A stretch of 64,000 bases of DNA from Antedon bifida. Taxonomy: Eukaryota > Echinodermata > Crinoidea > Comatulida > Antedonidae. Within the stretch, counting starts at the first letter, position 1. Each line of letters opens with the position of its first letter. A program made the position numbers and the translations under genes. This document shows, piece by piece, positions 9,408-32,804 of this stretch. Where the stretch lies: positions 4,712,001 to 4,776,000 of the forward strand of contig OY727096.1 in assembly GCA_963402885.1 (NCBI GenBank), in the 5' to 3' direction. The notes beneath the pieces were generated by a model, which worked only from the letters and a program-made list of their open reading frames with translations, made no database searches and was not told the DNA's origin.

Positions 9408-10355
9408 ATGGAGTCCATAATTATCAAGTCGATGCTTATATCTTCTATAACTGTTGTAGTTTTCTCACAATCTCCACAAGTATCAACAACTTTAGGGGTT
9501 ATTACTGGTGAGACAATCAACTTTAAAGAAGATTCATACTTAAAAGTCGATAAGAATATTGATATATACAAAGGTATTCCATTCGCTGAACCACCAGTTG
9601 GTGAGTATCGGTTTGAGAAGCCACAACCCAAAGAACCTTGGGATGGAACATTGGATGCAACAAAATATGGTGCATCGTGTCTGCAGTCTCCTTCTCCATA
9701 TGTAACTGAAGGCAAAGATGACTGTTTATACTTGAATATCTTTTCACCCCAAACAAAGGTAAGAATGACTTAACAATTTATGAAAATCATTGTAGCATGT
9801 CCAAAACCAAGATGGAACAGTTGCAATATCAACTGCAATAGAACTTTTATATAATAATAAATTTGAAAAATAATAACCATTTAGGCTTCTATTCTAATTG
9901 TTTAGTTAAGTATTGCACTAGTGTGCTCATTGGACCAACCATAAATCTGTCTATTTAAGAAAAATTTTCAATGGCACCATCCCAAAGAAACTTTATAATA
10001 AAAACATTTTTATTTCAGCCTGAGAATGCTGCAGTTATGGTCTTTATCCATGATGGTGGATTTACCATTGGCACTGCTTCTACAGACTATTATTCTGGAA
10101 TGCCGTTAGCTGCCACTGGTGATGTCATTGTCGTGACTATCAACTACAGATTGAACTTTTTTGGCTTTCTTACAACTGGTATTATATATTATTTTATATG
10201 TATTTTTGCCATACACATTTAGTAAGTTAAAGGTACAATACACTCACTTCACTATGAAGCATAAAAATATTAAATTAAAGCTTCAACTAAAAAGCCACCC
10301 CGAGAATGCATTCCTCCGCCTACTGTAAAATTCTCATACATAAGATTTCTCAGGG

Positions 10356-10387
<32 letters not shown>

Positions 10388-10800
10388 TTTGTGTGTGTCA
10401 TTTGTAATTTGTGTGTGCTGTTTGTGATTTAGCCTAATTTCACTACAAGCATGTGTATGCGCGTTTAGTGTAATGGTTATGTAACCAGCCTTTCAATTAA
10501 CAATAGCTTCAGTTGACTAACAATAGAACAATAACGCGAAAATCAAATGAGTAAATTTGAAAAGAATTAGGTTTTTTAAACTACTCGCATCAAAAAAGGT
10601 GCACATTAAATCAAATTATGTTTTAAAATTACAAATCAGCAATTATAACTCTTGCATTTTGTACAAAATGAAGTTTTTTGGACAAGTAGTTCTTGAGAAA
10701 ATGCAATTTCAGTTTACTTGTTACTTTAAGACTGCTCGCTAGCTATCTGTATATTCATTTTGGTAAAGATCTTGTAATTACTTTTTGAGTAATTCTGCTA

Positions 10801-28800: not shown

Positions 28801-31800
28801 AACCAAAATAAATTTCCACTATTTAATATACTCATTTTTGTAACAAAATTATAAAATTTGCACATTTTTAACAAAATTAGCATTATAATTACATATTTTT
28901 AATACAAGTTTGGTAGCAATGGATAGAATATTTTATAGGCTTTCATTTGATACCAAATAGTTTTTCCAAACACTTAAATTATTTAATATTATATAAATAA
29001 ACATAACAATTACGCTACCAAATATTCATTTTTTCTATAAAAGTAATCAAAATATGCACATTTTCCATACAATTAGCTTCATAATTAACAATCTTCAATA
29101 CAAGTTGGGAAGCAATGGGTAGCATATTGTGTATGCTTTCATTTGATACCATACAGTTTGTCCATTGCCATTTTAAAGAATAATTTAACCAGAAAATGTG
29201 TTTTTGGTCATTTTGGGGTCAAAGGTCAGTAGAAGCATTTCCGGTCATTTTTTCGCTAAAAGTTGTGTTAGACTGAATATAAATATGTATATTCTGATCA
29301 ATTTGACACCAAAAGAACATTTGAATTATTTAATATTATAAATAAACCAAAATAAATTTACACTATTTAATATACTCATTTTTGTAAAAAAATAATAAAA
29401 TATGCACATTTTTAACAAAATTAGCATCATAATTACAGATTTTTAATACGAGTTGGGTAGCAATGGATAGAATATTTTATGGGCTTTCATTTGATACCAA
29501 ATAGTTTTTCCAAACACTTAAATTATTTAATATTATATAAATAAACATAACAATTACGCTACCAAATATTCATTTTTTCTATAAAAGTAATCAAAATATG
29601 CACATTTTCCATACAATTAGCTTCATAATTAAATATTTTCAATACAAGTTGGGTAGCAGTGGGTAACACATTATGTATGCTTTCATTTGATACCATACAG
29701 TTTGTCCATTTGCATTTTAAAGATTAATTTAACCCGAAAATGTGTTTTTTGGTCATTTTTGGGTCAAAGGTCAGTAAAAGCATTTCCGGTCATTTTTTCG
29801 CTAAAAGTTGTGTTAGACCGAATATAAATATTTATATTCTGAATAATTTGACACCAAAACCAAATCTATACCACAAGTGGTTGTCGAGATATAAGAACCA
29901 CACATTTTTAACCTTTGACCCCGGTTTTGGGCATGTTCGCCCCGGATAGCAAATTTGGCACATATCCCATGTTGTTCCTTGGGATCAAATTATCCTATAA
30001 CAGTTGAGATAATCTCTCCTAAATTAAATGCATACAAATCTGACCCAGGTCCTAGACTATTAACCTTTAAGGTGTATCAAAAGGACTTTTAACAATTTAG
30101 TTTTATTTAAAGTTTTTTTTTATTCCATCAATTCATTATTATTTAGGTGATGAGGACTATCCAGGCAACATGGGACTATTTGATCAACAAGAAGCTTTAA
30201 AATGGGTGAACACACATATTGGAGGTATTAAATAAAATATTATTCATATAATGTTGAACATAGAAAATAAAATATTTAAAAAATGGTGTATTGTAGTGTA
30301 CTAGTCTAGGTTCTAGACAGCGATTCGGCTTAATATTGTAAAAAGATACATTTATTAAACAAAATATTGTAAAATAAAAATCTAAACAAATTATTTTTTT
30401 CAGCATTTGGAGGGGACCCATCGCGTGTTACCATATTTGGTGAAAGTGCAGGATCTGCTAGTGTAGACTATCATCTACTTTCAAAGGGAAGTTGGACATA
30501 TTTCAGTCAAGCTATTTTAGAGGTTTATATTTTTATTTAATTTTATTTATGTACTCTACCAACAGCTGTCTACCAATGTATTAAAGTCAACTCTAACGAC
30601 CCCGGATGGAGAACTGGAAACTCTCCTATTAAAAACTAAAAATGTACCAAACATCCTCAGTTTCTTTGCTAACTATTTTTATGTATTCTAAAACCCAGCC
30701 TAACTACAGTAATTATAATAGTTTGTGAGATTTTACTGTCTTTATTATTACCATATTATACAGAGTGGGACAGCCTTGAGTCCTTGGGCTAGTATAGAAA
30801 GAGAAGTGGCAGTAGAAGTGACAATTGACATTGGAAAGAAAGTTGGCTGTGAATATACTGAGAGCAAGGCATTTGTAAGCTGTATGAAGTGGATCGATGC
30901 TGAAGCGATACTTAATGCTTCTGTCGGGGTAAGATTAATATAAACTATAACTTGTTTCTGTGACTGAAACATAAACTTTTATTACCATCTCAAGTTTCGC
31001 CCATATGTTACTGAGGAGTTCTCATTGATGACAATGGAGGGACAAATGAGCTAAGTTCTTAAAGTCCTACGGTTCAAGGTATTCAAGGTATATACCAATA
31101 ACAATTTTAAACTGAAATAATAATGAAATACTGTACTGTACATTGTGGTCTCTTCTATTATCATCTTTATGTTTAGCGAAATATTATTTGGTGTTGTAAG
31201 TAACATGACCCAAAATCTGACCATGGAGGTCTCAACAGCAACACACACATGTACTGTACATAGGCCTACAGTGTCAAATATTATACAATTAGACTAAATG
31301 TTACCATAGTGTTGTAGAATCAATTAATTAATTACACATTTGATTATTTCTATTTTAAAAAGATGACTGTTGTGCCAATACCAGTTGTGGATGGACTATT
31401 TCTGGAAGATAGTCCAGAAGTGTTGATAACAAATGGAGAGATTAAACGAAATGCAACTATCATCGTTGGAACCAATGAGGATGAAGGAACATACTTACTT
31501 TTTTTCGATCCCGTTTACTCTTCTCCAAATACTCCAAACCTTTCAAAGGCTGAGTTTCTTCAATTGATCCCAACAATATTACTTAAAGAGCCTGTAAATC
31601 CGCTAATTATGGATTCTATTGATTTTGAATACACTGATTGGTCTTCAGCAGACAACCCAGATGCAGATTACTTCAATTCCACTGTTCAACTGACCACAGA
31701 TTCACAATTCTTGTGTCCAAGTGATGTAGTACAACGTGCACATTCTACAGCAGGAAACAATGTCTACGTTTATCTTATGACACATGTTCCAACAGTTTCT

Positions 31801-32804
31801 GTGTTCTCCCCTTATATTCCGATGGGTGTTGGGTTTGACTGGCTCAGAGCTGGTCACGGTGAAGAACTTCAATTTGTGTTCGGATTGCCATTTTTGCCTA
31901 ATGCTTCCATGTACCAGTTTGAGCAACCTAATGATGTTGATCGCAATGTGTCAGTTGAATTTGTGAGATATTGGACAAACTTTGCAAAAACTGGGTAAGC
32001 TTTGAGTCTTGTTTAATTCTCCAAACAAAATAGATTATCACATGAAGGCATAGACAGCAATTTTAGTTAATATAAGAATTTTAGGTTTAAACTACTGGTA
32101 TATATTATTAAGAAAGACAATTTGACAGACATATGATTGATAACGTTTTTGAACCTAGTGATCCAAACTCCAGAGGAAGTGAGACACCATATCCATCATT
32201 TGACAACGACCTCGTCAACTGGCCAAAGTACACCATCCCAGAACTGCAATATCTAGATATCAACATAATGTCACATTCTGATCGAGCTTATCGTGCTGAC
32301 AAGTGTGCCTTCTGGAATTCATATCAACCAAAACTTGAACAATATTCAGGTAGTGTAGCGTTGTTTACCTTTAGTTATGAATTATTGAATTGTTATAAAT
32401 TTATTGCACGCCAACTACCTGTAATTGAATCATGACCTGACTATAGTCTTTGTGCTTTGTAAATTAATAGGAATGATTTTTTACTGTGTATAAAAGGTAA
32501 ACATTGCCAACAACAAAAAAGAAAGATTACAACATGGGATAATTCCTAGGGCCTGTATTCATGAAAGGGGACTATCTTTAGTTCTGGACTATCTTTAGTC
32601 TGTGACTGTGGTACTCTTACATTTGAAAAACTATTTCTTTATGATCTTTCTCAGCTGATCGTTTTCGTTGTTTTTTGTTTTTCAGCTGATCTGCCTGAAC
32701 AAGAGAAATCCTGGAGAGATGATTATTACAATTGGAAGAATAATGATCTACCTGAGTGGCAGAGAGTGTTTGATGACTACCAACAAAACAATGTTTGTAA
32801 CTAA
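25862..32804 (+). CDS. Secreted cholinesterase/carboxylesterase-like protein, copy 5
   Basis: Eight coding exons: 25862-26215, 26501-26660, 30147-30224, 30404-30522, 30764-30928, 31363-31994, 32159-32349, 32686-32804; 605 aa. The signal peptide is one residue longer than in the paralogues. The nucleophile elbow is GESAG (Ser212), the acid Glu333 and the base His457 (RAGHGEE). The oxyanion motif is HGGAF (129-133): Ala replaces the third Gly, the residue that in acetylcholinesterases is Torpedo Gly119. Exon 3 begins GDEDY where the others have DDEDY or DDEYY. Intron 2 is 3486 bp because of a 3.3-kb inverted-repeat element; all splice signals are intact, so the gene looks functional. The Trp-rich tail is conserved (NVCN end). 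The donor after exon 4 is unusual (GTTTAT). Confidence 0.94.
26747..30060. mobile_element. 3.3-kb inverted-repeat (foldback) element in intron 2 of esterase copy 5
   Basis: The left arm 26747-28040 and right arm 28773-30060 are nearly complete reverse complements (about 1.29 kb each), around a 0.73-kb middle. Both outer ends read TAGTCTAGGACC / GGTCCTAGACTA, flanked by TA. A further copy of the end sequence (CCCAGGTCCTAGACTA) lies at about 28205-28220. So 26747-28221 may be one complete unit with its own terminal repeats, and 28773-30060 a truncated inverted second copy. Each arm is built of degenerate subrepeats of about 190-200 bp with a higher-order period near 540 bp (word TGGTATCAAATGAAAGC). 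No transposase is seen. The two 69-residue reading frames in the arms are copies of each other and have no family support. Confidence 0.85.
28316..28676. mobile_element. Small nested inverted-repeat element in the loop of the foldback
   Basis: TTAAAGATGTATTGTTCCCC at the left and GGGGGACAATACATCTTTAA at the right are inverted repeats about 360 bp apart. The outer TTAA could be a target duplication. It lies wholly inside the unpaired middle of the larger element. Confidence 0.6.

Follow-up and report, generated by a model that had tools for sequence, protein, structure and literature searches.

The tetramerisation tail, here termed the WAT tail, is known on acetylcholinesterase (AChE) and butyrylcholinesterase (BChE), and it positions these enzymes in plasma or at synapses. 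In both enzymes four WAT tails bind one proline-rich peptide, and BChE makes use of a peptide from lamellipodin (PMC5943944). A stretch of 64,000 nucleotides from the crinoid Antedon bifida (C9:4712001-4776000, contig OY727096.1; hereafter the window) carries on its forward strand five esterase genes in tandem, copies A–E, which we read with good confidence as cholinesterase-type esterases that have no choline-binding gorge, have kept the WAT tail and are proposed to form anchored or soluble tetramers. The feature itself is real and well conserved, uniting a known fold with a known tail in a combination for which no description was found, and it is widespread in echinoderms. The open-access literature, surveyed by titles and abstracts and with subscription papers mostly outside its reach, yielded no account of a WAT tail on non-cholinergic esterases.

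Compared with vertebrate AChE-T and BChE, the window esterases display the same catalytic fold and triad, the same tail position after the catalytic domain, and the same three Trp with Phe, Tyr and a terminal Cys. They differ in being without Trp84, Asp72 and the acyl-pocket loop, in an omega loop of 14 rather than 26 residues, and in a tail whose second and third Trp stand one residue further apart. The AChEs of echinoderms, hemichordates and amphioxus (three genes on contig C10 of the same genome, and the proteins P0126, P0144 and P0142) share both the WAT tail and its W-x6-W-x7-W spacing, although the crinoid examples on C10 retain a 26-residue loop containing EMWNP. Tail-less esterases of hemichordates and sea stars likewise possess a short omega loop and fall within one ambulacrarian clade with the window genes, but they, and a gene cluster on contig C1 that lies outside our tree, end in another, often charged, C-terminus. 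Vertebrate carboxylesterases (CES1 and CES2) also have the carboxylesterase fold and triad and are non-cholinergic, but form a separate clade.

Copies B, C, D and E are complete within the window, each with eight exons, GT-AG introns and a frame that is open from ATG to stop. The preliminary description had placed five copies between 9408 and 32804; five do exist, but this interval runs exactly from the start of copy B to the end of copy E and holds four of them, with copy A lying at 1110-2907, cut by the left edge of the window. The 5′ exons of copy A were located at C9:4709560-4711726, making it complete in the genome (the 315.6 Mb assembly used for all genome searches). The best protein matches belong to Antedon mediterranea, at 97 % over 369 aa for copy A (P0004), 95 % over 415 aa for copy C (P0003) and 94 % over 606 aa for copy E (P0001), and for copies B and D the best protein identity is about 85–86 %.

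The terminal exon

The last exon of all five copies is entered in phase 1 and encodes 39–41 residues that carry the exact motif W-x6-W-x7-W-x3-F-x2-Y-x5-C, as first described; that of copy C reads ADLPEQEKSWRDDYYNWKNNDLPEWQKAFNDYQQNKVCS. Equally, the claim that its border matches that of AChE holds against the three C10 AChE genes, which share the positions and phases of their last two introns with the genes of the array (a phase-2 intron that follows Thr-Gly and a phase-1 intron ahead of the tail), even though their catalytic part lies in one large exon rather than six. Judged by its sequence, this tail is a homologue of the AChE WAT tetramerisation tail, set behind the same exon border: it has the spaced Trp, the Phe/Tyr and the Cys, a C-terminal helix in the model described below, a profile likeness beyond chance and a phase-1 exon of its own.

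With regard to that likeness, alignment of 20 echinoderm tails to four AChE tails (hhalign) returned a probability of 96 and an E-value of 1e-9. The tail profile scored 40.0 against the vertebrate tail, compared with at most 18.4 for 300 column shuffles (0/300 equal) and 14.3 for the reversed profile. The three Trp are invariant in 20/20 of these aligned tails, which were chosen for carrying the motif. Among solved structures, the copy C tail is matched best by 1vzj, an AChE tail peptide, and the relatives P0008, P0018, P0020, P0039 and P0073 do carry a Pfam AChE_tetra call. A match to that Pfam model (PF08674), proposed earlier as a check, was obtained in part: 16 of the 20 echinoderm tails reach E ≤ 0.05 (best 1.1e-7), but single window tails stay beneath the curated cut-off of 25 bits, and a protein search with the tail alone returned solely the query itself. 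Such sub-threshold scores would be expected if the motif were a product of chance or of faulty gene models, an explanation whose probability we consider negligible, as the motif recurs in five copies, in both crinoid genera and in all five echinoderm classes, shuffled controls fail to reproduce it (when the copy C tail was shuffled 200,000 times, it arose, up to the Tyr, once), and silent change in the tail is far above amino-acid change.

The extent of this constraint is apparent from comparisons among the copies. Pooled over ten pairs of the five, the ratio of amino-acid to silent divergence (pN/pS) is 0.12 in the tail, against 0.38 elsewhere, and dN/dS lies at 0.05–0.12 for the tail (eight pairs with a computable tail dS) and at 0.27–0.39 for the catalytic part (ten pairs), figures that come from a short tail and from pairs that are not independent of one another. 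Change in the tail is mostly silent, and the tail is thus under purifying selection; a similar constraint applies to exon 3 (0.16) and exon 4 (0.12), each over six pairs of copies B–E. Separately, silent divergence (pS) of exon 7 among copies B–E is 0.05, far under the 0.28 of exon 6 and 0.35 of exon 8, which suggests gene conversion among the tandem copies.

In the AlphaFold model of P0001, the 94 % identical relative of copy E, the tail is predicted as a single helix (residues 569–600). A bend of this helix at the Pro that follows the second Trp and precedes the third is consequently not supported, with the caveats that AlphaFold may smooth a bend and that the model is that of a relative.

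Catalytic domain and choline site

The Ser-Glu-His triad is intact in the window esterases, and the omega loop between the first two Cys contains 14 residues and no Trp in all five copies (that of copy A lies outside the window), in agreement with the original account of a missing Trp84. Most of the gorge aromatics are absent, along with Trp84, Asp72 and the acyl-pocket loop, with Asp72, Tyr121, Trp279, Phe288, Phe290 and Tyr334 not kept as a gorge and acyl-pocket set; Trp233 persists, and in copy E a Phe occupies the Tyr334 position. Each protein harbours 3–7 N-glycosylation sequons (copy A being partial) and the N-terminus is hydrophobic and signal-peptide-like by eye. On these residues, the window enzymes are apparently secreted, non-cholinergic esterases with a WAT-type tail. 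The fold of the P0001 model is closest to BChE and AChE, and this, with Trp233 and the triad, is what one would anticipate of enzymes that still hydrolyse choline esters in life by means of another aromatic standing in for Trp84; we consider this very improbable, given that the loop that bears Trp84 is reduced to about half its length, that Asp72 is missing along with the acyl-pocket loop, and that the same genome has three distinct AChE genes whose loops contain EMWNP.

Those three C10 genes retain Trp84 within their EMWNP loop, and their WAT exon, identical in spacing, scores above the Pfam cut-off (34–41 bits). Two of them, L004 and L008, also have Ser at the third oxyanion Gly (Gly119, a position at which a change is known to confer insecticide resistance) and read SESAG where AChE has GESAG. 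Six more tailed genes are found on C1, with omega loops of 9–16 residues in 6/6, such that the genome contains at least 11 tailed short-loop genes (all gene counts being lower bounds). Pfam AChE_tetra, applied genome-wide, places 3 exons over its cut-off, as opposed to the at least 11 further tails found. The C1 cluster at 28.91-28.95 Mb is devoid of the WAT motif across 46 kb of forward strand, and the single gene there with a readable end passes from the same phase-1 border into a charged tail (phase judged by eye).

Coordinates are collected in Table 1. The PMS1-like mismatch-repair gene between copies A and B has HATPase_c_3 matches in two exons that fall just below the cut-off. Further downstream are a long open reading frame for a CDK5 activator (p35-like) and a low-complexity ATC repeat.

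Table 1. Features of the window; omega-loop coordinates of copies B–E were counted by hand from the spliced sequence, and tail-exon scores are for the exon alone
Feature	Position (nt)	Strand	Remarks
Copy A, exons 5–8	1110..2907 (1110-1274, 1560-2194, 2337-2527, 2789-2907)	+	Spliced model free of internal stops
Copy A, WAT-type tail exon, phase 1	2789..2907	+	AChE_tetra E 0.0013, 18.8 bits
PMS1-like mismatch-repair gene	5500-8800	-	
Copy B, 8 exons, 604 aa	9408..13134	+	HDGG (first oxyanion Gly to Asp); GDSAG for GESAG
Copy B, short omega loop, Cys-x14-Cys, no Trp	9678..9725	+	
Copy B, tail exon, phase 1	13016..13134	+	
Copy C, 8 exons, 604 aa	15339..18656	+	HGGG and GESAG intact
Copy C, short omega loop, Cys-x14-Cys	15609..15656	+	
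Copy C, tail exon, phase 1	18538..18656	+	AChE_tetra E 0.0028, 17.8 bits; 1vzj E 0.046
Copy D, 8 exons, 607 aa	20824..24707	+	
Copy D, short omega loop, Cys-x14-Cys	21094..21141	+	
Copy D, tail exon, phase 1	24583..24707	+	
Copy E, 8 exons, 605 aa	25862..32804	+	HGGA at the oxyanion hole instead of HGGG
Copy E, short omega loop, Cys-x14-Cys	26135..26182	+	
Copy E, tail exon, phase 1	32686..32804	+	
CDK5 activator (p35-like) long open reading frame	52320-53582	+	Pfam E 5.2e-86
ATC low-complexity repeat	60032-60469		About 440 bases; three frames open

Relatives and origin of the tail

Relatives of copy C were taken as the best 120 of 6,997 matches, and comprise 97 proteins of echinoderm or unnamed origin, 12 from hemichordates and 11 others, with members in all five echinoderm classes. 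Among these, the tail motif occurs in 72 of the 97 echinoderm or unnamed rows and in none of the 12 hemichordates. The loop is readable in 69 of the 72 tailed relatives and measures 9–19 residues; five such loops hold a Trp, which by eye is off the Trp84 position. Among the 25 rows that lack the motif are partial or fused models as well as Patiria proteins, and in five of the latter (P0050, P0056, P0063, P0084 and P0085) transmembrane-like or glycosylphosphatidylinositol-like ends appear by eye to replace the tail. The Anneissia model P0007 is similarly without a tail and seems, by eye, to read through past the exon 7 border. Four of the 72 tailed proteins, all from the brittle star Amphiura (P0016, P0037, P0038 and P0067), continue from the tail into RDEL or RNEL, ends that resemble endoplasmic-reticulum retention signals, and the gene L006 (C10:7231440) also has a WAT tail followed by an RNEL/RDEL-type end. 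The tail Cys is missing in many sea-star members. Full tails are also present in P0009, P0036 and P0074, on contigs of 2.1–2.8 kb that are too short for intron-bearing genes like those of the window, and so these are probably spliced transcripts.

For AChE itself, 118 further proteins were drawn from the best 120 of 5,238 matches to a C10 AChE (two were already known). The tail motif is present in 104 of the 118, the 14 without it being mostly partial models, and all 101 loops readable among the 104 have 24–28 residues with a Trp. The longer spacing ahead of the third Trp had been noted as a difference from human AChE-T, and was weighed as a hallmark of non-cholinergic tails. This was ruled out: of the 104 AChE tails, 29 show x7 and 75 show x6, and the named x7 AChEs are all from echinoderms, hemichordates or amphioxus, x6 being the vertebrate form. 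The 72 tailed short-loop relatives divide into 25 with x6 and 47 with x7 (window and lizard rows set aside). Among the 14 AChE-type proteins that lack the motif, three from brittle stars (P0140, P0148 and P0151) have Tyr in place of the second tail Trp, and two of them, P0148 and P0151 of Amphiura, have an omega loop of 15 residues; as P0148 lies inside the AChE clade, the Trp84 loop was apparently shortened independently there.

The main tree was built from 44 of the first 80 proteins and 13 others of AChE type (57 rows in all), with omega loop and tail excluded and with three CES rows as the only outgroup. In this catalytic-domain tree, of the kind suggested earlier as a check, the short-loop family falls outside both the AChE clade (19 rows, 100/99, with Anopheles, vertebrate, amphioxus, hemichordate and echinoderm members) and the CES clade (100/100). 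It instead constitutes an ambulacrarian clade of 35 rows (96/96), which is located beside AChE and not inside it. Once insect, snail and brachiopod esterases are added to the rows, the union of AChE and short-loop esterases as one side of a branch is weak (78). Earlier trees of 80 and 48 rows, drawn from other row sets, recover the same two main clades, but disagree on the unity of the tailed rows.

The tail may therefore either go back to the ancestor shared with AChE, one branch having since lost it, or have been captured once in echinoderms. The second course, in which the echinoderm stem lineage acquired the tail exon from an AChE gene, is compatible with tailed non-cholinergic esterases as proposed here, and we give it somewhat less than an even chance. 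In the 57-row tree, a subgroup of 25 rows (96/90) unites 24 tailed proteins with one Patiria protein that has a membrane-like end, and stands beside a subgroup of ten tail-less rows (92/83; seven hemichordate and three sea star), as capture would predict. The C1-cluster gene, in which the last phase-1 intron borders a different terminal exon, further indicates that terminal exons are exchangeable. Against this, the 80-row quick tree places the tailed rows in two groups, where six changes suffice and separate origins cost one more (hand count); on the 57-row tree inheritance and capture are equal in cost, again counted by hand.

Proposed assembly and significance

Under the assembly that we propose, the esterase would be secreted, and four tail helices would wrap one proline-rich peptide of a partner, in the manner of AChE and BChE, with the Cys near the C-terminus stapling subunits by a bond. 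The resulting tetramer might be soluble, or tethered through the proline-rich partner, and the opened pocket would hydrolyse non-choline carboxyl esters. Given the use of lamellipodin by BChE, a general proline-rich peptide could suffice as the partner. Of the earlier picture of secreted, non-cholinergic, oligomeric esterases, the non-cholinergic character stands on residues and tree and secretion is apparent, whilst oligomerisation and anchoring are what we infer by analogy.

That dependence on analogy is one of several points that weigh against this reading. The window gene models derive from genomic sequence alone. As well as the sub-threshold scores of the copy A and copy C tails, AChE_tetra gives E-values of 0.5–2.1 and at most 10.5 bits on the whole proteins of copies A, B and C, and no match on D and E. 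The structural match to AChE and BChE spans mainly residues 19–566, with the tail outside it. The oxyanion-hole changes in copies B and E mean that their activity may be altered. Moreover, the partner with a proline-rich attachment domain (PRAD), for which a search had been suggested, did not emerge convincingly from the genome: the PRiMA model PF16101 produced nine weak matches there, of which the best had E 0.005 and none passed the cut-off, and of eight loci inspected, three yielded proline-rich pieces, which resemble plain proline runs. The PRAD-like DNA pattern for Pro-Pro-Pro-Leu-Phe-Pro-Pro-Pro, modelled on ColQ, gave 6 matches compared with 4 for the backward control.

One of the six matches, L048 (C9:18240634, reverse strand), reads PPPPPLFPPP within a proline-rich open stretch of 60 residues, resembling the attachment motif of ColQ, and is considered a lead only; the frames examined over 1.2 kb showed nothing like a collagen run.

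The negative outcome of these anchor searches would be accounted for if the tail were homologous to WAT but bound no proline-rich anchor, serving instead in dimers, a helical bundle or retention in the secretory pathway. The loss of the tail Cys in many sea-star members favours this, as do the RDEL/RNEL ends of the four Amphiura proteins, which suggest an intracellular role there; for these, and for L006, oligomers held in the endoplasmic reticulum are possible. For the family at large we nevertheless regard the anchor-free alternative as unlikely, considering the invariance of the Trp trio (in tails picked for the motif) and a constraint on the tail that exceeds that on the catalytic part as a whole.

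Returning to WAT-mediated tetramers, a broader and decidedly tentative proposal, which we lean against, is that WAT-type assembly is a general device for building and tethering esterase tetramers that predates the split of AChE and ambulacrarian esterases. The echinoderm multigene family would then be non-cholinergic and proline-anchored, with WAT, charged, transmembrane and endoplasmic-reticulum-type terminal exons swapped at one phase-1 intron.

In practical terms, Pfam AChE_tetra overlooks the short-loop echinoderm tails, and acetylcholinesterase-like labels on echinoderm proteins can mislead, for example in pollution assays. With the tail kept and the choline grip lost, the assembly tail appears to serve echinoderm enzymes with another job. 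The existence of a large family that has the tail but no choline site implies that assembly and cholinergic functions are separable, which opens to test whether the assembly module is older than cholinergic specialisation, whether it anchors other cargo, and which proline-rich partners it might have in invertebrates.

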